IMG/VR virus record: IMGVR_UViG_3300048797_000170 | Location: 1-45,574 of that record | DNA from: a virus | Direction: 5' to 3' (one strand) | Length of the DNA stretch: 45,574 nucleotides | Part shown: positions 1,036 to 40,703 of the stretch, in pieces | Layout: every line of letters begins with the position of its first letter | Numbering within the stretch: position 1 is the stretch's first letter | Made by a program: the position numbers and the translations under genes | Notes under the pieces: model-generated | The model's input: the letters and a program-made list of their open reading frames with translations, nothing else | The model's database searches: none | What the model was told of the DNA's origin: nothing

Positions 1036-2652
1036 CTACGAGGAGCCACGCCTGGAGAAGAACGGACTCGTCGACTGCTCGACGGTGGGCATCACCAGGT
1101 CCTGGGTCATCGCGCAGGCGATGGCCAGGGAGTCGGCGAAGTCGTCGTGGGCGTGCGCCTCGTCGGGGGCGGCGGCCATCATGTTGGGGCCGACGAAGTT
1201 CTTCTCCAGGTCGACCATCTGCTGGAAGAACCGCTTCCAGACGCGAAGCCGCCGGGTCTTGGCGTGCGCGGGCCAGCCGATCAACTTGCGCTGGATCAGG
1301 GCCTGCAGGTGCTTCCAGCGCTTCGACTGCTCGCTGGGTGAGGACCCGACCGGGACCACGGTGGAGTGTGGTAGCAGCAGCGCGAGGCGCTGCGCCACGG
1401 CGTCTCCGACACCACCGGAGTCGACGCCGACCTGCAGCACGCTGTAGTCGGCCAGGAAGTTGACGATCTGGAAGTACTGCTCCTCCCAGTCGTCGCCCTG
1501 GATCTCGAGCCAGTTCAGGATCCGGTGGTCGTAGTAGCCGTACTCGTCCGGGCGGTCCCAGTCGACCCAGACCACGGTGACCACGGTGGAGTCCATCTTG
1601 CGGGCAGGATCCACCCCGACCACGACCGGCGTCTTGTGCCAGGAGCGCACCAGTTCGGTGGAGGTGTCGCCCAACTCGTCCATCGCGGTCGAGGTGACGA
1701 ACATGCCACGCTCGAGCAGCCAGCGGCACATGTACGACATCAGGAACTCGTCGGAGTCCTCACCGATCCGCAACTTCTCGGCCCGGATGAACTTGGCGTA
1801 GTTGGGGTTGACCTTGGCGACGTCCCGCCAGTCCCACTGGAAGTGGAGTTGTCTCTTCCCGCGCTGCGTCTGCAGGCGCCGGTTCAACTGGATCGAGCGG
1901 TAGAAGTTGTTCTTGGTGCCGGTCGGGGTGCCGGTCTTGACCTTGGTCGCGTTGTAGTAGGCGCCCATCGGCATGATCGACTTGTTGACGATGAAGTCGT
2001 CGGAGTCCTGGGCCTCGTCGATGATGATGATGTGGAATGACTTGGACTCGATCTTGGCCCGGGGGTTGGCGGTCATCATCAGCATCGAGGATCCGGACTT
2101 CTTGAGCATGATGCCCTTGGTGACCCCCGGCGTACGGCCGGTGATGTCGTCAATCTCGTCGTCGGCGAGGATCTCCACCGCACGGGGGGACGTGAGCCGG
2201 GAGACCGCGCGCCCGAACAGCGTCTCCGCCTGCGCCTGGATGGGGGCGAACATGCCGACCCAGACCCCACCGGCGAACTTGCCCAGCAGGTCGGGGTACA
2301 CCTTGGCCAGCAGCGGAAGGATCACCATCAGGGTGGCGGTGATGTCGGCGACGGTCTCGCTCTTCCCTGACTGCCGGGCGGCTAGGGCGGTAATCTCTGC
2401 GCCGTCGTTGATCAGCACGGACTCGATGTAGCGGCGCGCCAGCGGCTTCTGGTAGACGTGCAGGTCGTGTCCGACCAGGGCCTCGTTGAAGGTCATGATC
2501 TTGTCGATCAGGTCGTCGATGAAGGACTGCGTGAAGTGGTCCTCCTCCGGGTCCTCCTCGTCGGTGAGGACGGCTGGGTTCATGGCGTCGGAGGGGTCAT
2601 CGACCTCGATGAAGCGCTCCTCGAGGTCCTCGTCGTCGAGGATGTCGCTCAC
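1036..2652 (-). CDS. terL: Terminase large subunit
   Basis: The 538-residue DNA-packaging motor. It hydrolyses ATP to pump DNA into the procapsid through the portal and cuts concatemers with a C-terminal RNase H-fold nuclease. Visible motifs: an acidic N-terminus; Walker A ARQSGKSE (92-99); Walker B HIIIIDEAQ (207-215) with the catalytic Glu after the Asp; a coupling motif KTGTPTGTKN (239-248). The nuclease aspartates are at GVDPA (D348), GVDSGG (D411) and the DDFADSLA segment (503-510). Length is normal for the family. It overlaps the upstream 79-residue gene by 4 bases. No small terminase subunit was identified; the small genes just upstream are positional candidates only. Confidence 0.95.
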   Translation of the reverse strand: MSDILDDEDLEERFIEVDDPSDAMNPAVLTDEEDPEEDHFTQSFIDDLIDKIMTFNEALVGHDLHVYQKPLARRYIESVLINDGAEITALAARQSGKSETVADITATLMVILPLLAKVYPDLLGKFAGGVWVGMFAPIQAQAETLFGRAVSRLTSPRAVEILADDEIDDITGRTPGVTKGIMLKKSGSSMLMMTANPRAKIESKSFHIIIIDEAQDSDDFIVNKSIMPMGAYYNATKVKTGTPTGTKNNFYRSIQLNRRLQTQRGKRQLHFQWDWRDVAKVNPNYAKFIRAEKLRIGEDSDEFLMSYMCRWLLERGMFVTSTAMDELGDTSTELVRSWHKTPVVVGVDPARKMDSTVVTVVWVDWDRPDEYGYYDHRILNWLEIQGDDWEEQYFQIVNFLADYSVLQVGVDSGGVGDAVAQRLALLLPHSTVVPVGSSPSEQSKRWKHLQALIQRKLIGWPAHAKTRRLRVWKRFFQQMVDLEKNFVGPNMMAAAPDEAHAHDDFADSLAIACAMTQDLVMPTVEQSTSPFFSRRGSS

Positions 2653-10461: not shown

Positions 10462-13362
10462 TCACTTCGCGTCTCCCCACTTGGTGACCACGTGGATGTC
10501 GGCGGTCAGTGGCACGGAGAGCACGTTGATGCCCTCCATCGCCTCCCGCAGGGCCTCGGAGGTCTCGTCGATGAGGTGGTTGGGGGTCAGGATCACGATC
10601 TCGTCGTGGACCGTCAGGATCATCCTCGCACCTTCTGGGATGAGCCGGTGGGCGCGCACCATGGCCAGTTTGATGATGTCGGCGCCGGTGCCCTGGATCT
10701 TGGTGTTGAAGCACTGTCGCTCGGCGCCGGACTTCTCCTTGTAGTCGGTGCTGCGCAGCAGCGGCAAGTATCGACGGCGCCCCAGCAGGGTGGTCACGTA
10801 GGGCACCGGGGACTTCAGCCGGGCCTCCTGGATGACCTGCCTCTTGTACGCCTCGATGGACGGGAAGTTCCGGTTGAACCTGTTCATCAGGTCCCTGGCT
10901 GCGGTAGAGGTGCAACCGATGTCCTTGGCGATGTGATCGGGGCCGATGCCGTAGGAGATGGCCAGCACCAGCACCTTCCCGGCCGCGCGGTCGACGCTCA
11001 TCGAGTCACCGACCAGGACGTAGACGTCGCCGCCGGTCAGGTAGTTGTGGATCAGGGCCCGGTCCTTGGAGAAGGAGGCGATGATCCGGGGCTCGATCTG
11101 GGAGTAGTCGGCCTGCACCAGGCTGAAGCCCTCCGGGGCGATGAACAGGTTGCGGATCAGCAGACCGTTCTCGGACTTCTTCGGGTTCGGGACGTTCTGC
11201 AGGTTAGGATGGCGCGAGTTGTGGTTCAGGAACCCGTGGGCGGCGTAGGAGTGATCTCCTGCAACCTCGATGTCCCAGACTCCCATTGCTCCCACAGGGG
11301 TGATTTCCACAAGTCGGGACGATCCGCGTACATCAACTGGTTGTGCAGCGTCCGGTGACCCGGCTTCGTCACCAGCGCCAGGTTGTCCGGGGAGTTGTTC
11401 AGCGGGTCCTTGTCGATGTGGTGGACGTCCAGGCTCGATGGCAGGTCCTCCAGCCCCAGCAGCCCCGCCATCACCCAGCGGTGCAGCAGTACGTACTTCT
11501 CGCTCACCTTGACCTGCAGGTACCCATTCCCGTCCGGGATCACTCCCTTGTAGTTGTGGTGCAGGGAACCACTCTTGCCCCGCATAGGGTTCTTGGGCCC
11601 CATCTTGGAACGTGAGTACCGCAGTGCCTTCTCCGCCCTGCGCTGCTCGGGGGTCAACTCCAGGTCCAGGATGGCGGTCACGGTCGCGTGCGTGACCCCC
11701 AGCCACTTGGCCAGCGTCGCCGTGGTGGGCTTCCCCGGTGCCATGTACTCCAGGAGCACCTGACGCCGGTTCTCCGGGTCCGCTACGTACCGCTTCGACA
11801 CTGACATAGGGGGTAGCCATCCGATCTCCGACGGCCAGGTCTCCGACGCGGACCCAGGCTCCCCTGGAGGTTAGCAGTTTGTGGTCCCTTGTGCAGGTCA
11901 GAACCGCCCCGTTCTCCAGAACGAGCCGGACCATCTGGTCGACGCCCTTGTAGATCTTGCGCAGCACCGGCCGCAAGCGGCCCATGTGGGTGACCACATG
12001 GTCGCCCTCGACGGGCAGGTACTCGTCGAAGCGGAAGACGCCCCGGCTGGTCAGCAGCAGGGTGTCCCCGGAGACGCAACTCATCCGGCCTGTCTCGGCC
12101 CCGTACTGGACGAAGTCGGTGTGGATCCGCCCCTTGATCAGCATCGAGTCCTTGACCGTGGTCTTGGACTTGCCGCCGGTGGTGTGGGTGACCTCTCCGC
12201 CCAGGTAGGGGATGACGTAGGTCGACTGCAGTTTGTCCAGTTCGGTGTAGGCCAGCATCTCGTCCACCAGCCGGTTCTTGCCACGGTACGGCTCGAGCGC
12301 GTCGGAGTCGGTGGAGTAGTGCCTGATCGTGATCGGCTCACCCTTCTCGGCCGCGATCTTTCCGGTGTCGGTGAGCCCGCGTGGGCGCAGTCCCTGCCCG
12401 CCCTCAGCCTTGGGGGCGTACAGCAGGTTCTGCTTCTCGGGGTTGGAGTTCATGTTGAACGCCCGCCCGGCGGCGGCGAAGACGCGCGCCTCGGCGACCT
12501 CGATCTCAGCGGCCAGGCGGTCGTAGAGGACCTGCAGCGCGGGGATGTCGACCGGGGCGCCCTCGAGTTCCATGTCGGCGAGCACCTCGAGCAGGTCCAT
12601 CTCCAGGTTGAAGATCCCGGTCAGGTGGTCGCGCTTGATCTTGGGCGCGTACTTATGCTTGAGCAGGTGGGTCTTGTTGGCGTCGATGGCGGAGTAGTCG
12701 GCGGTGTCGGAGAAGGTGGCCAGCGCGACGTTCTTGCCCAGACCCTTGACCATGTGGTACTTGAGTTCACGGGCCGAGCAGTCGTCCAGGCCGAGGTGGA
12801 AGTGGTGCCGGTTGTCCAGGATCGAGGCCATCACCAGGGTGTCGGCGTACGGCGGGGAGGGGATCTCGCCCTGCAGGTACTTGGCCGCGCTGACCAGGTC
12901 GAACTTCAGGCCGTGCCCAATCTTGGTCTGCTCGGAGGTGAACAGCGGCTTGAGTGTTCCCCAGACCTCGCCCGGGCTCAACTGCACCGGCGGCGGGGAG
13001 AAGACCTTGACGCCCTTGTTGGCGGCCTTGGAGTAGTCCTGGGGGCGGACCTCGAGCCCGGCGGCACGGCGCTTCAGACCGGAGTTCAGGATAGGGTAGT
13101 CGATGCGCAGCAGTTCCCCGTTGGGGTGGCCCATCGGGATCACGTCGGTGCGGACGTTGCGTGGCTCGCCGCAGGCCATCGACAGCCAGACGATGTCGTT
13201 ACGGACGGTGTCTCCCCGGTGCTCGCCGATGGTCTCGACGTCGTAGGTGAACTCGTCCTCGGCGGAGTAGACGTCCTGCACGTCGGCGAGTTGCTCGGGG
13301 GTGGTGATGAGGTTGTAGGTGATGCCGTCGGAGGTAGTTCGGCTGTCGTGGAGCGGGAGCAC
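10462..13362 (-). CDS. polA: Family-A DNA polymerase containing an intein
   Basis: 966-residue precursor from a GTG after GAAGGA; removal of the 287-residue intein (precursor residues 429-715) leaves about 679. The N-terminus is a DEDD 3'-5' exonuclease (EFTYDVETIGEH). There is no 5' nuclease domain. Polymerase motif A is VQADYSQIEPRI, motif B RAAGKVLVLAISYG and motif C MILTVHDEIVI. In motif B the position equal to E. coli Phe762 is leucine. The intein splits TGRMS from SRHPNLQN, a conserved primer/template-contacting segment, so splicing must occur for activity. This is the phage replicative polymerase. Confidence 0.95.
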   Translation of the reverse strand: MLPLHDSRTTSDGITYNLITTPEQLADVQDVYSAEDEFTYDVETIGEHRGDTVRNDIVWLSMACGEPRNVRTDVIPMGHPNGELLRIDYPILNSGLKRRAAGLEVRPQDYSKAANKGVKVFSPPPVQLSPGEVWGTLKPLFTSEQTKIGHGLKFDLVSAAKYLQGEIPSPPYADTLVMASILDNRHHFHLGLDDCSARELKYHMVKGLGKNVALATFSDTADYSAIDANKTHLLKHKYAPKIKRDHLTGIFNLEMDLLEVLADMELEGAPVDIPALQVLYDRLAAEIEVAEARVFAAAGRAFNMNSNPEKQNLLYAPKAEGGQGLRPRGLTDTGKIAAEKGEPITIRHYSTDSDALEPYRGKNRLVDEMLAYTELDKLQSTYVIPYLGGEVTHTTGGKSKTTVKDSMLIKGRIHTDFVQYGAETGRMSCVSGDTLLLTSRGVFRFDEYLPVEGDHVVTHMGRLRPVLRKIYKGVDQMVRLVLENGAVLTCTRDHKLLTSRGAWVRVGDLAVGDRMATPYVSVEAVRSGPGEPASGAPGVHGTGEAHHGDAGQVAGGHARDRDRHPGPGVDPRAAQGGEGTAVLTFQDGAQEPYAGQEWFPAPQLQGSDPGREWVPAGQGEREVRTAAPLGDGGAAGAGGPAIEPGRPPHRQGPAEQLPGQPGAGDEAGSPDAAQPVDVRGSSRLVEITPVGAMGVWDIEVAGDHSYAAHGFLNHNSRHPNLQNVPNPKKSENGLLIRNLFIAPEGFSLVQADYSQIEPRIIASFSKDRALIHNYLTGGDVYVLVGDSMSVDRAAGKVLVLAISYGIGPDHIAKDIGCTSTAARDLMNRFNRNFPSIEAYKRQVIQEARLKSPVPYVTTLLGRRRYLPLLRSTDYKEKSGAERQCFNTKIQGTGADIIKLAMVRAHRLIPEGARMILTVHDEIVILTPNHLIDETSEALREAMEGINVLSVPLTADIHVVTKWGDAK
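11218..12078 (-). other. Class 1 intein in the DNA polymerase
   Basis: A 287-residue in-frame intein. Splicing block A starts with the nucleophile in CVSGDTLLLTSRGVF. Block B is VLTCTRDHKLLT with the TxxH pair. Block F is GVWDIEVAGDHSYAAHG. Block G is GFLNHN followed by Ser as the first C-extein residue. All class 1 splicing residues are present. The first ~90 and last ~35 residues are good Hint-domain sequence. The ~160 residues between are Gly/Pro/Ala/Arg-rich and unlike any domain, because that DNA encodes an HNH protein in another frame. Confidence 0.93.
11226..11807 (-). CDS. HNH homing endonuclease nested out of frame in the intein
   Basis: 193 residues, read in the +1 frame relative to the polymerase/intein. 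An N-terminal helix-turn-helix (TLAKWLGVTHATVTAI, about 31-46) precedes a long basic linker and a clear HNH core. The core is LHRWVMAGLL, then SLDVHHIDKDPLNNSPDNLA with H129/H130 and N142, then PGHRTLHNQ. Third codon positions are mostly G or C in this frame, so it has been maintained as protein. The HNH core ends near residue 157, just before the intein's C-terminal splicing blocks. The last ~33 residues are read across those blocks. It would cut intein-free polA alleles. The ATG follows a run of five C; no strong ribosome-binding site is visible. Confidence 0.85.
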   Translation of the reverse strand: MSVSKRYVADPENRRQVLLEYMAPGKPTTATLAKWLGVTHATVTAILDLELTPEQRRAEKALRYSRSKMGPKNPMRGKSGSLHHNYKGVIPDGNGYLQVKVSEKYVLLHRWVMAGLLGLEDLPSSLDVHHIDKDPLNNSPDNLALVTKPGHRTLHNQLMYADRPDLWKSPLWEQWESGTSRLQEITPTPPTGS

Positions 13363-18663: not shown

Positions 18664-19649
18664 CGGTACGACACCCCCTGCTGGTAGGAGGAACGACCTC
18701 TTGAGCAGTGGACCGCTTCCCCGATCCCCACACGGATCTGGTCCTCCGTCATGTCGCCGATGTCCTTGTTGCCCTCGGACCACGTGTTGTTGAAGAACCA
18801 TGGCTCCATGCCGAGGGTCCTCGAGGCCTCCCAGATGGCGGCGGAGGCCTTGATCCCGGCCTTGTCGTTGTCCAGTGCCACGCACAGCCTAGTGGCCCCG
18901 CGCAGCAGCATCATCTGCGCGTCACTGACCACCGCGCCGTACGAGGACACCCCGCCCTCGATCCCCAGCGAGGTCAGCCGGACCGCGTCCAGCGGGGACT
19001 CCACCAAGATCATGTTCTTGCCATCGGTCTCCATGAAGACATCCAGCCCGAACAGGGCGAAGGACTTCTGGACCCCGGCCGGGCGGTTCTTGAACAGCCG
19101 CGAGTCCTGGCCCTTCTCCTGCCAGCCGAGCAACTTGTCCCCGGGCTGCCTCGGTGTGCCGGAGAGGGGCTCGCGGATCGGGATGATCCAGGAGTGGTGG
19201 GCGTCCTCCCAGCGCACGGTGTGGGCCCGGCACGCCTCCACCGTCAGCCCGCGTGCGTCGAGGGCCCACTGCGGCGGGTCGGTGTAGACCGCCAGCCGTG
19301 CCTCGGACATCTTCACCAGCCGGAACGGGTTGGTGTACGCCTCCTTGACGCGCTCCAGCCGCTCGCTGAGCATCGTGAAGTCGACCTCGTGCTCGGCGGC
19401 GAGCCAGTCCCGCGCCTCGGCGGTGGTGATCGTCAGCATATCGGCGACCAGGGACGCTAGACCGCCCTTGTACCCGCACGAGAAGCAGAAGTGCGCCCCG
19501 GTCTCGGCGTTGATCGACCACGAGGGCGAGTTGTCGGCACGCCCTGTGGTGGCCTCGTGCCCCGGGCACAGCGCGACCAGTTCGTCGCCCTTGGTCTCGA
19601 GCACGTCGATGCCGATGCTGCTCAGCAGGTCTTCGGTGACCAGGATCAT
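18660..19649 (-). CDS. dnaG: DnaG-like DNA primase
   Basis: 329 residues from the ATG at 19649, which overlaps the helicase stop (ATGA). It makes RNA primers for the phage polymerase. The CHC2-type zinc finger uses C28, H31, C55 and C58 (VALCPGHE, HFCFSCGY). The TOPRIM domain is seen as MILVESPLDAVRL, where the glutamate is the catalytic base, and RLCVALDNDKAG with the DxD metal pair. It is short for a DnaG and lacks a helicase-binding C-terminal domain, as is common in phage primases. The next gene upstream is the DnaB-like helicase, so the two act together. Confidence 0.9.
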   Translation of the reverse strand: MILVTEDLLSSIGIDVLETKGDELVALCPGHEATTGRADNSPSWSINAETGAHFCFSCGYKGGLASLVADMLTITTAEARDWLAAEHEVDFTMLSERLERVKEAYTNPFRLVKMSEARLAVYTDPPQWALDARGLTVEACRAHTVRWEDAHHSWIIPIREPLSGTPRQPGDKLLGWQEKGQDSRLFKNRPAGVQKSFALFGLDVFMETDGKNMILVESPLDAVRLTSLGIEGGVSSYGAVVSDAQMMLLRGATRLCVALDNDKAGIKASAAIWEASRTLGMEPWFFNNTWSEGNKDIGDMTEDQIRVGIGEAVHCSRGRSSYQQGVSYR

Positions 19650-21874
19650 GGGATCATCGCTCCTAGTTCCTCGAACTCGCCTGTGGTCCAGTCCCACTTC
19701 AGGGCGGTCTCGGCGGGGCCGGTGTTACGGGATGAGACCACCTTCAGGATCCTCTCCATCGGGTTGTCCTCGTCAGCCTGCAGGCCCAGGATCACGTCCG
19801 AGTCCTGGAAGAACGACGACGAGTTTCCTGTGAAATACACGTTTCCTTTGCGCCTGGCGAACCAGGTGCTGTTCTGGGTGGTGGGGCACCAGATGATCCC
19901 CGTGTGGGTCACCGCGCGGGCCACAAACCTCCGATCCTGCGCGGCGGAGGCGATAGGTGTGACGACCTGACGCTTGCGCATACCAACCCGCCACATCCCG
20001 GACGGATCCTGCTGGAGGCCAGTGTTGATCCCTGCCAGCGTGCACGCGAACTGGAACATCTCGGCGGCGTCCCGCCGTTTCTGGGACAGCGCATTCGGGC
20101 CGTTGTTGTCCGCCAGCATTGACACCCGGATGAACGAGTGCAACTGATCCTTGGTCAACTTCCGCAGGAAGTCCCAGGTGGGGACCTTATCGGGAGCGTT
20201 TGCCAGCAGCGCCCTTCCGGCATCCACACTCAGCCAGAACTCGGTAATCCCCTTGTCGCGTACGTTCGCGCGCCAGCGAGGGGCGCCATCGCTGCACCTC
20301 CCCATGCGTGGGATGGGGCCGAACCACTCGGACCCGAACTCCTTCTCTAGCAGGTCCCGGATGGACGTGGTGTGGTCGAGGTTCACGGTGTGTGACTGGG
20401 TGATCCCCACATTCCCATGACGCCCGTTGATGTGACCCTCGGTCCAGAACCAGGCCATCAGGTCCACGTACGAGTCCGTGTACGTCGGCATCGTGGGGCA
20501 CGTGGTTTCGGCGGCAGTGATCAGGTAGTCGACGGCATTCAGGTCCCCCGTCGTTCGCCACTCTCGATCCACGGTTCCCCGGCGCGAATAGTGGTGCAGC
20601 ACCGGCCATCGGTGCTGCATCGTGGTGAGTGAAGAGTGCGCCTTCCCCTCCATCAAGGCCATCGTCCGGGTCATCTCCGGGAACACGTTCACCGCCTGCA
20701 CAGGCTGCCACTCCGATAGGCCGCTGTCGTGGTTCAGGGTGAGTGTCAGGTCGCCCACCTGGAGAGTGTCGTAGGTCTTCCACCCCCGCTGGGTCAGGAT
20801 CTCGGTCTCTTCGTCGACGCAGTAGCCGATGGCGTCGGCACTGACCTGCCCCTTCTTCATCTTCCACAACAGCACCTGGGTGGTGATGATGATCGGGATC
20901 TTGAGTTTCTGGGCGGACTTCTTCAGCGAGCGGGTGATGTTGGTCAGCGCCTGCGGCGTGTTGCACTCCCCGGTGACCTCGTCGGTCATGAGGTAGACGC
21001 CATCGATGACCAGCATCGAGGGCCGGAGTTGCTCCGCCTTGGCGGTGATCGCGCTGACGCTCAGCCCGGAGACCGCGTCGGTCAGGATGAACGGGTTCGG
21101 CATCGCGGCGGTGGCGGTCAGCATCGCCTCGTAGAGGCGCTCCTCCATCAATGACAGTGTCCCGGTGCGCAGGGAGGAGTGTGAGATCTTGGCCCGCATC
21201 GCGTCGTAGCGCTGCTGCTGCTCGGCGTTGCTCATCTCGAACGACTGGAACAGTGCCGTCGCGCCGACGTTGTGGGCGTTGATCGCCATCTGCATGGCCA
21301 GCGTCGACTTGCCGACCTTCGGGGCGGCGATGATGGTGACCAACTGCTCGGGCTGCAGGCCCGAGGTGGCCTTGTCGATGGTGGGGAATCCGGTGGGTAG
21401 CCCCAGCAGCCCGTTAGGGAGCGCCTGGAACGCCTGGTAGGCGGTCAAGCGGGACAGCGGGTCGGCGATCATGTCCAGGTCGGAGACGGTAGATCCGACG
21501 GCCTGGATCTTGCCCAGGCCTGCGGTCAGCACCGCCAGCGCGGGCCCCGAGGACGGGTCGGCGACGAGCGCGTCGGCCGCGTCCTGGACCATCCGCACGG
21601 TCTCCATCCGCTGATGGAAGGCGACCGTCTCGTCGGCCAGGTACTCGATGGTGTCAGTGACGTTGAGCAGTCGGAAGTTGGGGTAGTTGTTCTTCACCGT
21701 GACGGAGGTGGGGACCTCGTCGTACTTGGCCCAGTGGGCCTTGGTGAAGGCCCAGACCTGCTTCGCCTCGGGGGAGGTGAAGTAGGTGTCGTCGATTCCC
21801 CGAACCAGGATCGGGCGGATGTCGCGGTCCCGGATCGCCTTGCTCAGCAGCCGGATGTCGTTGTCAGCCGCCAT
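19646..21874 (-). CDS. dnaB: DnaB-like replicative helicase containing an intein
   Basis: 742-residue precursor; the mature extein is about 409 residues after removal of a 333-residue intein (precursor residues 352-684). The N-terminal domain is DnaB-like and helical. The RecA-fold core has Walker A APKVGKST (184-191), Walker B SMLVIDGVYLM and an IIITTQVLLW strand. The intein separates ADAIGY from SSSFFQDSDVILGL, inside the conserved H4-type loop that contacts DNA. The helicase unwinds the phage fork together with the primase downstream and the DnaC-like loader encoded three genes upstream. Confidence 0.92.
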   Translation of the reverse strand: MAADNDIRLLSKAIRDRDIRPILVRGIDDTYFTSPEAKQVWAFTKAHWAKYDEVPTSVTVKNNYPNFRLLNVTDTIEYLADETVAFHQRMETVRMVQDAADALVADPSSGPALAVLTAGLGKIQAVGSTVSDLDMIADPLSRLTAYQAFQALPNGLLGLPTGFPTIDKATSGLQPEQLVTIIAAPKVGKSTLAMQMAINAHNVGATALFQSFEMSNAEQQQRYDAMRAKISHSSLRTGTLSLMEERLYEAMLTATAAMPNPFILTDAVSGLSVSAITAKAEQLRPSMLVIDGVYLMTDEVTGECNTPQALTNITRSLKKSAQKLKIPIIITTQVLLWKMKKGQVSADAIGYCVDEETEILTQRGWKTYDTLQVGDLTLTLNHDSGLSEWQPVQAVNVFPEMTRTMALMEGKAHSSLTTMQHRWPVLHHYSRRGTVDREWRTTGDLNAVDYLITAAETTCPTMPTYTDSYVDLMAWFWTEGHINGRHGNVGITQSHTVNLDHTTSIRDLLEKEFGSEWFGPIPRMGRCSDGAPRWRANVRDKGITEFWLSVDAGRALLANAPDKVPTWDFLRKLTKDQLHSFIRVSMLADNNGPNALSQKRRDAAEMFQFACTLAGINTGLQQDPSGMWRVGMRKRQVVTPIASAAQDRRFVARAVTHTGIIWCPTTQNSTWFARRKGNVYFTGNSSSFFQDSDVILGLQADEDNPMERILKVVSSRNTGPAETALKWDWTTGEFEELGAMIP
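19823..20821 (-). other. WCT-type intein with degenerate LAGLIDADG domain
   Basis: 333-residue intein in the helicase. It starts CVDEETEILTQRGWKTYD and ends VYFTGN, with Ser following. Block B reads TMQHRW (TxxHxW), block F IIWCPTT, and block G FTGN. The Trp, Cys and Thr are therefore in the noncontiguous positions that define class 3 inteins, while Cys1 is also present. The penultimate residue is Gly rather than His. The insert carries a LAGLIDADG-type first helix (YVDLMAWFWTEGHIN). A second helix (LHSFIRVSMLADNN) is poorer, so endonuclease activity is uncertain. Confidence 0.88.
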
Positions 21875-38591: not shown

Positions 38592-40703
38592 TTAGTTGGT
38601 GACGGTGGCGGAAGATCCGCCGTCGAACTGGCCGATGCGGATGATGACGAACTCGGCGGGCACCTGCAGCGCGACCCCGACCTCGATCACGACCTGGCCG
38701 TCCGAGACGGACTGCAGGGAGTTGTTGGTCGCGTCGCAGACCACGTAGAAGGCGTCACCGGCCTTGCTGCCCTTGAGACCACCGGACTGCCACACCCCGT
38801 TGAGGTAGGTGGTGCAGACCGTGCGCAACTGCGCCCAGAGCCGGGTGTCGTTGCCCTCGAAGATGGCGAACTGAGTGGCGTCGAGCAGGCTCTTCTTGAT
38901 CTGGAGCATGGTGCGCCGGGTGTTGACGTAGCGGAAGCGGGTGTCGTTGGAGACGGTGCGGGCACCGAACACGCAGATCCCGGCGCCGGGCACAGACCGG
39001 ATCGAGTTCACCGGGGTGATCGCCGTGTTCAGCGCGTCGAGGTCGCCGGAGGACAACTTGCGCTCCAGGGCGACCACGTTGGACAGTGCGGCGCCGACGC
39101 CCGCCGGTGCCTTCCATGCTCCGCGCGAGGCGTCGGTGGCCAGGTACAGGCCCACCACCGCGCCGCCGGGGGCCACGGTGCGGGTGGAACCGCTCGAGGA
39201 CGCGGACGGGTCCGGGATGACCAGGTTGGGGTAGTAGATCGCCCCGTTGCTGGACTTCGGCGTGATGTCGGCGGCGAAGCCGATGGCCTCCGAGGGCATC
39301 AGCCCGGCGGGGGTGTCCATCACCATGAAGGAGTCGCCCCGGTTGTCGAGCATTCCCAGGTAGGCGGTGTAGACCGACTGCGCGTCCGACTCCGACAGGA
39401 TCGCGGCGTCGGGGACGTTGACCACCAGGTTCGGGTTGAGCGCGTCCAGCCCCGTGGCGGCGGCGATCAGTTCGGAGGCCTGCAGCGCGGCGCCGTCCAG
39501 GGAGCCTGTGATCAGCGTCGGGACGGTGTGGCTGGAGGTCGCCAGCGTCAGCGCGCTGACCGCCGCCGTGCCCGGGTTCGTGGCGAGCGCGTAGGTGAAC
39601 TGGGTGCCCGTCGCCGTCGCGATGGCGAACGTGCCGTTGTACGCGTTGGTCACGCTCCCGGCCACGGTCACGTTGGAGATCGTCACCTGGTCGCCGACCA
39701 CGAAGGCGTTGGCGGCGGTCACGGTGACCACGTTCGTGGCCCACGCGACGGCCGTCGGGACGGCGGTACGGACGGTGACGACGTTGACCGTGGGGCGGCC
39801 CAGGCCGACCGGGATGCCCTCGTTGGTGCTCGGGCCTCGGTAGACGTTGACCCCACCCACCACCGGGGCGACGAAGCCCGCCGGGAGGGCGACCTGGATG
39901 TAGGCGCTGTTGGTGTTGATGACCTGCAGCGCGTAGCGAGCGGCGGCCGGGTCCAGCGATAGATCGTTGAACTTCTCGACCAGGTAGCCGTTCGTGGTAC
40001 CGCCCAGCAGCACCGAGACCGCGAAGGTGTCGGTGGAGGGGGAGACCGCGCCGGAGGTGGCCGTGATCATGTCACCCTCCGTGTAGGAGGACCCGGTGCT
40101 GGCGATGGTGAAGTTCTTGTAGTCGATGACCGAGAGCACAGGGCCCTCGACGTTGGCGCCGGTACCGGTCAGCCCGGTGATGGCGACGATGGTGCCTACG
40201 CTCAGGCCGTGCGAGGCCGACGTGGTGACCGTCATCACGTTGCTGGCGTTGCGGCTGACCATCTGGATCGCGGAGACCAGGCTCAGGTTGTCGACCACCA
40301 GCGACAGTCCGGAGGTGGCCGTAGCCAGACCCCAGTCGCCGGGGCTGGAGGCGGTGACCGTCAGCACGTCGGTCGGTGATACCAGCCCGTCGTTGAGCGT
40401 GATCGTGGCCGGGTACGCGGTGCCCGAGGCGACCCGGTTGACCCAGCAGCCGCGCCCGTTGTTGGAGAAGAACATGTACGCGGCGTAGGCCAGCGGGTAC
40501 GCCGAGCCGTCGGAGCGCTTGAAGCCACCGAACTGGCGGGAGAACTCCGACCAGGTGGCGGTGAAGACGGGGCCGGTCACCGAGCCGCGCTCAGCGGCGC
40601 CGACGAAGGCGCCGACCGCGATGTCGAGTCCCAGCGAGTTGATCTGCTGGGGCAGCACGACCTCTTCGACGTAGGCGCCAGGACGCTTGAAGGTTGCAAC
40701 CAT
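38592..40703 (-). CDS. Tail sheath protein
   Basis: 703 residues. The start FKRPGAYVEEVVLPQQINSL and GFKRSDGSAYPLAYAAYMFF are signature sheath elements. The C-terminal domain (VNTRRTMLQIKKSLLDATQ and the following helix-strand) interlocks subunits. A large Val/Thr/Ala-rich insertion of about 300 residues (roughly 100-400) forms extra surface domains. The sheath contracts on adsorption to drive the tube through the envelope. This gene establishes the phage as a myovirus-type virus. Confidence 0.95.
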   Translation of the reverse strand: MVATFKRPGAYVEEVVLPQQINSLGLDIAVGAFVGAAERGSVTGPVFTATWSEFSRQFGGFKRSDGSAYPLAYAAYMFFSNNGRGCWVNRVASGTAYPATITLNDGLVSPTDVLTVTASSPGDWGLATATSGLSLVVDNLSLVSAIQMVSRNASNVMTVTTSASHGLSVGTIVAITGLTGTGANVEGPVLSVIDYKNFTIASTGSSYTEGDMITATSGAVSPSTDTFAVSVLLGGTTNGYLVEKFNDLSLDPAAARYALQVINTNSAYIQVALPAGFVAPVVGGVNVYRGPSTNEGIPVGLGRPTVNVVTVRTAVPTAVAWATNVVTVTAANAFVVGDQVTISNVTVAGSVTNAYNGTFAIATATGTQFTYALATNPGTAAVSALTLATSSHTVPTLITGSLDGAALQASELIAAATGLDALNPNLVVNVPDAAILSESDAQSVYTAYLGMLDNRGDSFMVMDTPAGLMPSEAIGFAADITPKSSNGAIYYPNLVIPDPSASSSGSTRTVAPGGAVVGLYLATDASRGAWKAPAGVGAALSNVVALERKLSSGDLDALNTAITPVNSIRSVPGAGICVFGARTVSNDTRFRYVNTRRTMLQIKKSLLDATQFAIFEGNDTRLWAQLRTVCTTYLNGVWQSGGLKGSKAGDAFYVVCDATNNSLQSVSDGQVVIEVGVALQVPAEFVIIRIGQFDGGSSATVTN

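Follow-up and report, generated by a model that had tools for sequence, protein, structure and literature searches.

The endonuclease of a standard intein is a domain fused to it. In canonical bifunctional inteins, this domain (HNH or LAGLIDADG) lies between the N- and C-terminal halves of the Hint splicing domain and is fused to them in frame. Split inteins accompanied by a separate endonuclease gene, an arrangement termed fractured genes, were reportedly described by Dassa et al. in 2009; there the endonuclease has its own gene between the intein halves. In the case known as ShiLan, a mycobacteriophage methylase gene that has no intein contains an out-of-frame HNH gene, located in an insertion that stays free of stops in the frame of the host gene (Arsenault, Gosselin and Gogarten 2025, PMC11855218). 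That insertion lacks splicing domains and is thought to remain in the methylase. Group I introns in phage DNA polymerase genes (with I-PfoP3I in Pf-WMP3, PMC3428280, and in PhAPEC7 and PS3) bear HNH endonucleases as separate genes within a splicing element; splicing is by a ribozyme at the RNA level, and the host frame is full of stops. I-PfoP3I nicks the intron-free polA gene 4 nt upstream of its intron site (PMC3428280).

Here we analyse a locus in a viral sequence of 45,574 nucleotides (IMG/VR record IMGVR_UViG_3300048797_000170; hereafter, the window) that resembles each of these systems in part. An endonuclease gene lies between two Hint halves, as in canonical inteins and fractured genes; unlike the former it is a separate, overlapping gene, and unlike the latter the halves belong to one uninterrupted open reading frame (ORF). 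As in ShiLan, the HNH gene is out of frame within an insertion that the host frame reads through without stops, but a complete Hint domain is predicted around it, the HNH family and the host gene are not the same, and openness was tested statistically in many genomes. With the group I introns it shares the HNH family and nearly the same polA motif, whereas here splicing would act on the protein and the host frame is kept open.

A predicted cis-splicing intein in a family A DNA polymerase

The interrupted gene encodes a family A DNA polymerase (PolA) and comprises the following features.

10462..13362, reverse strand: PolA ORF, 966 amino acids including the intein (PF00476, E = 5.5e-79; DNA_pol_A_exo1, E = 1.1e-7).
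12079..12090, reverse strand: end of the N-extein, GRMS, adjoining the intein (alignment to the intein-free Alone3 PolA).
11218..12078, reverse strand: intein of 287 amino acids, from Cys1 to His286-Asn287, followed by Ser at +1 (TIGR01445 and TIGR01443 matches; AlphaFold Hint fold; Foldseek).
11809..12078, reverse strand: N-terminal splicing half, residues 1–90, with block A (C1) and block B (T63xxH66) (pLDDT 92–98; conservation).
11326..11808, reverse strand: intein-frame linker, residues 91–251 (161 codons), a shadow translation of the HNH gene that is predicted to be disordered (pLDDT; codon usage fits the HNH frame).
11218..11325, reverse strand: C-terminal splicing half, residues 252–287, with blocks F and G (pLDDT 93–97; conserved in 23 relatives).

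The original prediction had placed an intein with splicing blocks at both ends in the polymerase frame, and our analysis agrees. The N-terminal Cys, the TxxH motif of block B, the C-terminal His-Asn and the +1 Ser are all present, residues C1, G13, D26 and H66 are invariant in 23 relatives, and the two halves share one ORF in frame with the exteins. Pfam and NCBIfam models recognize both ends of the intein, N- and C-terminal, in the polymerase frame; HNH_3 is matched in the other frame. The insertion is precise and falls at a conserved site: the window reads GRMS/SRHPNLQNVP (the slash marks the intein), compared with GRFSSREPNLQNIP in an alignment to the intein-free PolA of Streptomyces phage Alone3. 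This polymerase, the best-scoring record, is 38% identical to the PolA of the window and reads uninterrupted across the intein site.

AlphaFold modelled the intein frame with pLDDT values of 92–98 for residues 1–90, about 93–97 for the C-terminal part and below 50 for residues 101–228; that is, a confidently predicted Hint fold around a disordered linker. The top Foldseek match of this model is the Mtu RecA intein (2imz, probability 1.00). We infer from these sequence features that the PolA precursor is spliced in cis by the intein. Elsewhere, the window encodes a DnaB-like helicase (19649–21874), the last roughly 400 residues of which have no PHROG match, and a tail sheath protein (38595–40703); the phage looks contractile-tailed.

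An HNH gene in the +1 frame of the intein

The DNA between the splicing halves also contains a gene in another frame, with the following parts.

11226..11807, reverse strand: HNH homing-endonuclease-like gene, 193 amino acids, ATG start, in the +1 frame of the intein (PF13392 HNH_3, E = 4.9e-10; phrog_7545, E = 5e-22; Foldseek match to I-HmuI).
11607..11735, reverse strand: helix-turn-helix-like N-terminal region of the HNH protein, approximately residues 25–67 (weak HTH_50 match; AlphaFold helices 29–36, 40–50 and 53–67).
11364..11489, reverse strand: HNH_3 core, residues 107–148 (VHHI(x)6N(x)3NLA and a downstream His, invariant in 25 relatives).
11226..11325, reverse strand: doubly constrained segment, in which the tail of the HNH gene overlies intein blocks F and G (ORF coordinates; codon log-odds return to the intein frame).
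11742..11744, reverse strand: alternative HNH start (Met22), with GGAG 3 bases upstream (sequence; start survey).

The HNH motif is accompanied by a predicted fold with a DNA-binding domain, of the HNH_3, I-HmuI-like type. The model has a mean pLDDT of 88, and its top Foldseek match, I-HmuI (1u3e), is weak (E = 0.037, probability 0.99); a sequence search of the PDB gave no HNH match. By codon-usage log-odds and GC content at third positions (GC3), the stretch from 12078 to about 11880 fits the intein frame and that from about 11800 to 11330 fits the HNH frame; the intein frame is preferred once more near 11298–11223. The switch points lie near 11810 and 11300. Two earlier claims are substantiated: that some 160 codons of the intein frame look like noise, and that the same DNA read one base over encodes a 193-residue protein with a helix-turn-helix and an HNH core.

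Selection maintains both reading frames

Taken alone, the window provides weak evidence that the openness of the intein frame is selected: the frame stays open in 12–17% of synonymous shuffles of the HNH core (P about 0.12–0.17), because the genome has GC-rich third positions and stops in this frame are rare. We therefore sought relatives. A megablast search of cultured phages gave no match to the polA gene, and single-protein scans of IMG/VR returned one distant match for PolA and were unproductive for HNH. A degenerate DNA pattern combining the C-terminal end of the intein with the polymerase motif that follows it retrieved 31 IMG/VR loci, many with the same arrangement, and a second degenerate pattern for the HNH motif retrieved further IMG/VR loci. 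Profile HMMs for HNH and for both splicing halves, run over all loci, yielded 43 distinct complete members including the window; these contain two near-identical pairs, leaving 41 that look independent.

All 43 members are family A DNA polymerases in which a single ORF contains both splicing halves and the HNH gene lies in +1; the GC content of their genomes ranges from 0.40 to 0.68. Across their HNH cores, the intein frame has no stop, compared with 251 expected from synonymous shuffles that keep the same HNH proteins and codon sets, whereas the remaining frame has 459 (413 expected). In 15 HNHs of the same family located outside inteins, the corresponding frame has 243 stops (231 expected). 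Given that the loci were picked by HNH motif or intein C-junction and not by openness, the intein frame is therefore kept stop-free by selection across the family. The open frame is thus highly significant across the family, in line with the proposal that it must stay free of stops, but not significant for the window on its own. An additional test for selection on the hydropathy of the linker gave a mean z of −0.7, which avoidance of T at the shared position could explain.

The HNH frame, in turn, is under purifying selection. In pairs of relatives differing at 22–30% of nucleotides, substitutions in this frame concentrate at the third position (for example, 30, 13 and 58, or 23, 21 and 67, at positions 1, 2 and 3), and 16 HNH residues, the catalytic His and Asn among them, are invariant in 25 sequences. 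The comparison of both frames among relatives, which the original prediction had suggested, therefore reveals constraint on each, and the constant +1 offset, the missing stops and the third-position bias together favour its view that splicing and endonuclease are two proteins from one locus. Sequencing error does not account for the double-coded arrangement, which is a genuine and recurring type of mobile element.

Start sites of the HNH frame

Most family members have ATG or GTG and the residues MSxSK at the junction between the N-terminal splicing half and the HNH gene; the junction sequences differ among members and have no common slippery site. An SD-like motif precedes 27 of 41 HNH starts, compared with 10% of in-frame control positions, an enrichment to which conserved Glu codons of the Hint domain may contribute and whose P value is optimistic because the sequences are related. 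The ATG of the window itself (11807) has no SD-like motif in range.

Kinship, target site and mobility

The nearest HNHs of cultured phages are 38–41% identical; their carriers are group I introns or insertions that interrupt phage DNA polymerase genes, for example those of Providencia PS3, Escherichia PhAPEC7 and Phormidium Pf-WMP3. Relative to the intein site, these insertions are displaced downstream by a few codons and fall inside the motif GRLSSSxPNLQ. By analogy with I-PfoP3I (PMC3428280), the HNH protein of the window would cleave site-specifically beside the insertion site and promote homing.

A tree of 55 HNHs intersperses those borne by inteins with the others, and its well-supported branches require that the carrier changed at least twice. 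Mean distances between viruses are 0.56 for HNH, 0.61 for Hint and 0.75 for the extein; the elements are thus more alike than their host polymerases, and this comparison is the basis for mobility, although unequal rates could give the same pattern. We found no close relative without the intein. One locus (L043, 10291–10756) retains an intact polA intein frame but has lost most of the HNH gene by deletion, a state that fits the loss stage usual for homing elements.

Several other polA loci differ in their details. In two (L048 and L155), the polA intein occupies a second site (PNLQQ/C), which lies a few codons further downstream, and its HNH gene belongs to the same family and is again in +1. 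In a Verrucomicrobia metagenome-assembled genome (L205, around 1959–2424, reverse strand), a polA-like frame is broken at GRSSS and followed by an HNH that belongs to the intein clade but has no intein around it. Another polA intein (L032) contains a different endonuclease-like ORF of about 315 amino acids in the +1 frame, with a DUF559 match and a helix-turn-helix. In L016 and L129, the PolA ORF has a fused N-terminal uracil-DNA glycosylase-like domain.

Terminase inteins and split helicase genes

A second, independent class consists of inteins in terminase large subunits that contain an HNH and zinc-finger gene in the +2 frame (L073, L110, L091, L063, L105, L189, L207 and L059, and also L211, L212 and L216). 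Acinetobacter phage Highwayman, Tetrasphaera phage TJE1 and Rhodobacteraceae phage MD07 represent the class among cultured or named phages. In eight members, the intein frame has 0 stops where 23.9 are expected, and the other frame has 147 (152.6 expected). Sister HNHs are found as free-standing genes directly beside terminase genes (L213, L214, L215 and L217; BP10, EauM-23, CL2 and PAE1), with stops in the frame corresponding to the intein frame, and possibly represent a pre-intein state.

A different organization occurs in the Pectobacterium phages Amona and Abuela (L007 and L210), in which a helicase intein is split by stops and a separate LAGLIDADG gene lies in another frame. The order is an IntN ORF ending in a stop, the LAGLIDADG gene and then IntC–helicase; L069 is similar.

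Proposed mechanism and alternative explanations

We interpret the locus as a mobile intein that splices in cis and is overprinted with a homing endonuclease gene translated on its own, and assign this reading a probability of roughly 0.86. PolA would be translated through the whole intein, the 161-codon middle yielding a disordered, hydrophilic linker; splicing by the Hint halves would then remove the intein and leave an intact polymerase. In a second round of translation on the same mRNA, ribosomes would start internally, where the N-terminal splicing half ends, and read the +1 frame to give a free endonuclease with a helix-turn-helix and an HNH domain. This enzyme may nick or cut intein-free polA alleles at the conserved GRxS/SxxPNLQN motif, after which repair from the intein-bearing copy would transfer intein and endonuclease together. 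The inserted intein would break up the target, thereby protecting the phage's own genome.

A canonical HNH intein could have been knocked out of frame by two compensating indels, through decay or sequencing error, leaving the HNH frame as a fossil. In the window, a one-base change at CCCCCT would merge the frames, and canonical in-frame HNH inteins occupy the same polA site (L025, L026, L038 and L039). However, the +1 arrangement is identical in all 43 distinct relatives, purifying selection acts on the HNH frame and we found no in-frame member of this HNH family. The family data refute decay or error, which we regard as exceedingly improbable. The original prediction had already judged sequencing error unlikely, and the 42 other distinct relatives confirm this; its worry about the C run before the ATG falls away, because those relatives have the same +1 offset with different junction sequences. 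An intact canonical bifunctional intein is likewise rejected, since the endonuclease is in +1 and not in the intein frame in the window and all 43 family members. It is very unlikely that the intein is effectively split, with PolN–IntN and IntC–PolC as separate polypeptides and the endonuclease gene between them. The Pectobacterium helicase and L069 show that a related architecture exists, but a split intein needs no open frame through the endonuclease gene, and the stop-free frame of 43 of 43 members, with the halves in one ORF in every complete member, argues against it. A hidden HNH insertion of the ShiLan type is ruled out by the complete Hint domain, seen in the matches to curated N- and C-terminal models and in the AlphaFold prediction. 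A group I intron is rejected on the grounds that the host frame is open by selection and the window has no Rfam match, the latter being a weak point because known introns carrying this HNH family also escaped Rfam.

The remaining alternatives accept the overlap and concern how the HNH frame is expressed and used. Instead of by internal initiation, the HNH frame could be reached by programmed +1 ribosomal frameshifting where the N-terminal half ends, which would produce an extein–IntN–HNH fusion. The constant +1 offset in the polA class fits this idea, as does the CCC-T just before the HNH ATG of the window together with its lack of an SD-like motif. Nevertheless, the variable junctions without a common slippery site, the prevalent ATG or GTG with MSxSK, the enrichment of SD-like motifs at the start and the +2 offset of the terminase class all speak against frameshifting, which we consider quite improbable. 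HNH proteins have other roles in phages, and the HNH activity is here a prediction; the protein might accordingly serve regulation or the exclusion of competing phages, for example, or be inactive now. This seems unlikely in view of the invariant catalytic residues, the greater similarity of the elements than of their host genes, and the relatives near the same polA motif, one of which nicks site-specifically beside its intron site (PMC3428280). A mobile intein with an overprinted homing endonuclease thus remains our preferred interpretation.

Implications

The original prediction had suggested that the arrangement might be undescribed. This stands in part: the nearest case in print, an out-of-frame HNH gene in a methylase without an intein, was published in 2025 (PMC11855218), and our literature search found no paper in which a contiguous splicing intein encloses an endonuclease gene in another frame, although one cited preprint may overlap. 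That preprint, on non-canonical actinophage inteins, is cited in PMC11855218 for overlapping frames and may already describe out-of-frame endonucleases in actinophage inteins. We lean slightly towards the broader view that endonuclease genes overprinted in contiguous splicing inteins form a class of mobile element that is widespread, recurrent and previously undescribed, with at least two origins in phages (the polA helix-turn-helix–HNH in +1 and the terminase HNH–zinc finger in +2) and with group I introns and inteins as alternative carriers of one HNH lineage, which has moved between them at almost the same motif of the polymerase.

If so, these elements would be the intein counterpart of the invasion of introns by endonucleases. 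In the locus described here, the two selfish parts are separate genes on shared DNA, with statistical evidence for the upkeep of both frames. The locus is also a natural case of genetic entanglement, because any insertion or deletion in the endonuclease gene that is not a multiple of three bases would put the polymerase out of frame. How endonucleases and splicing elements come together becomes directly testable, since one HNH lineage can be compared in introns and in inteins at almost the same target motif. For annotation, the finding is a warning that featureless intein middles may conceal an endonuclease in another frame.
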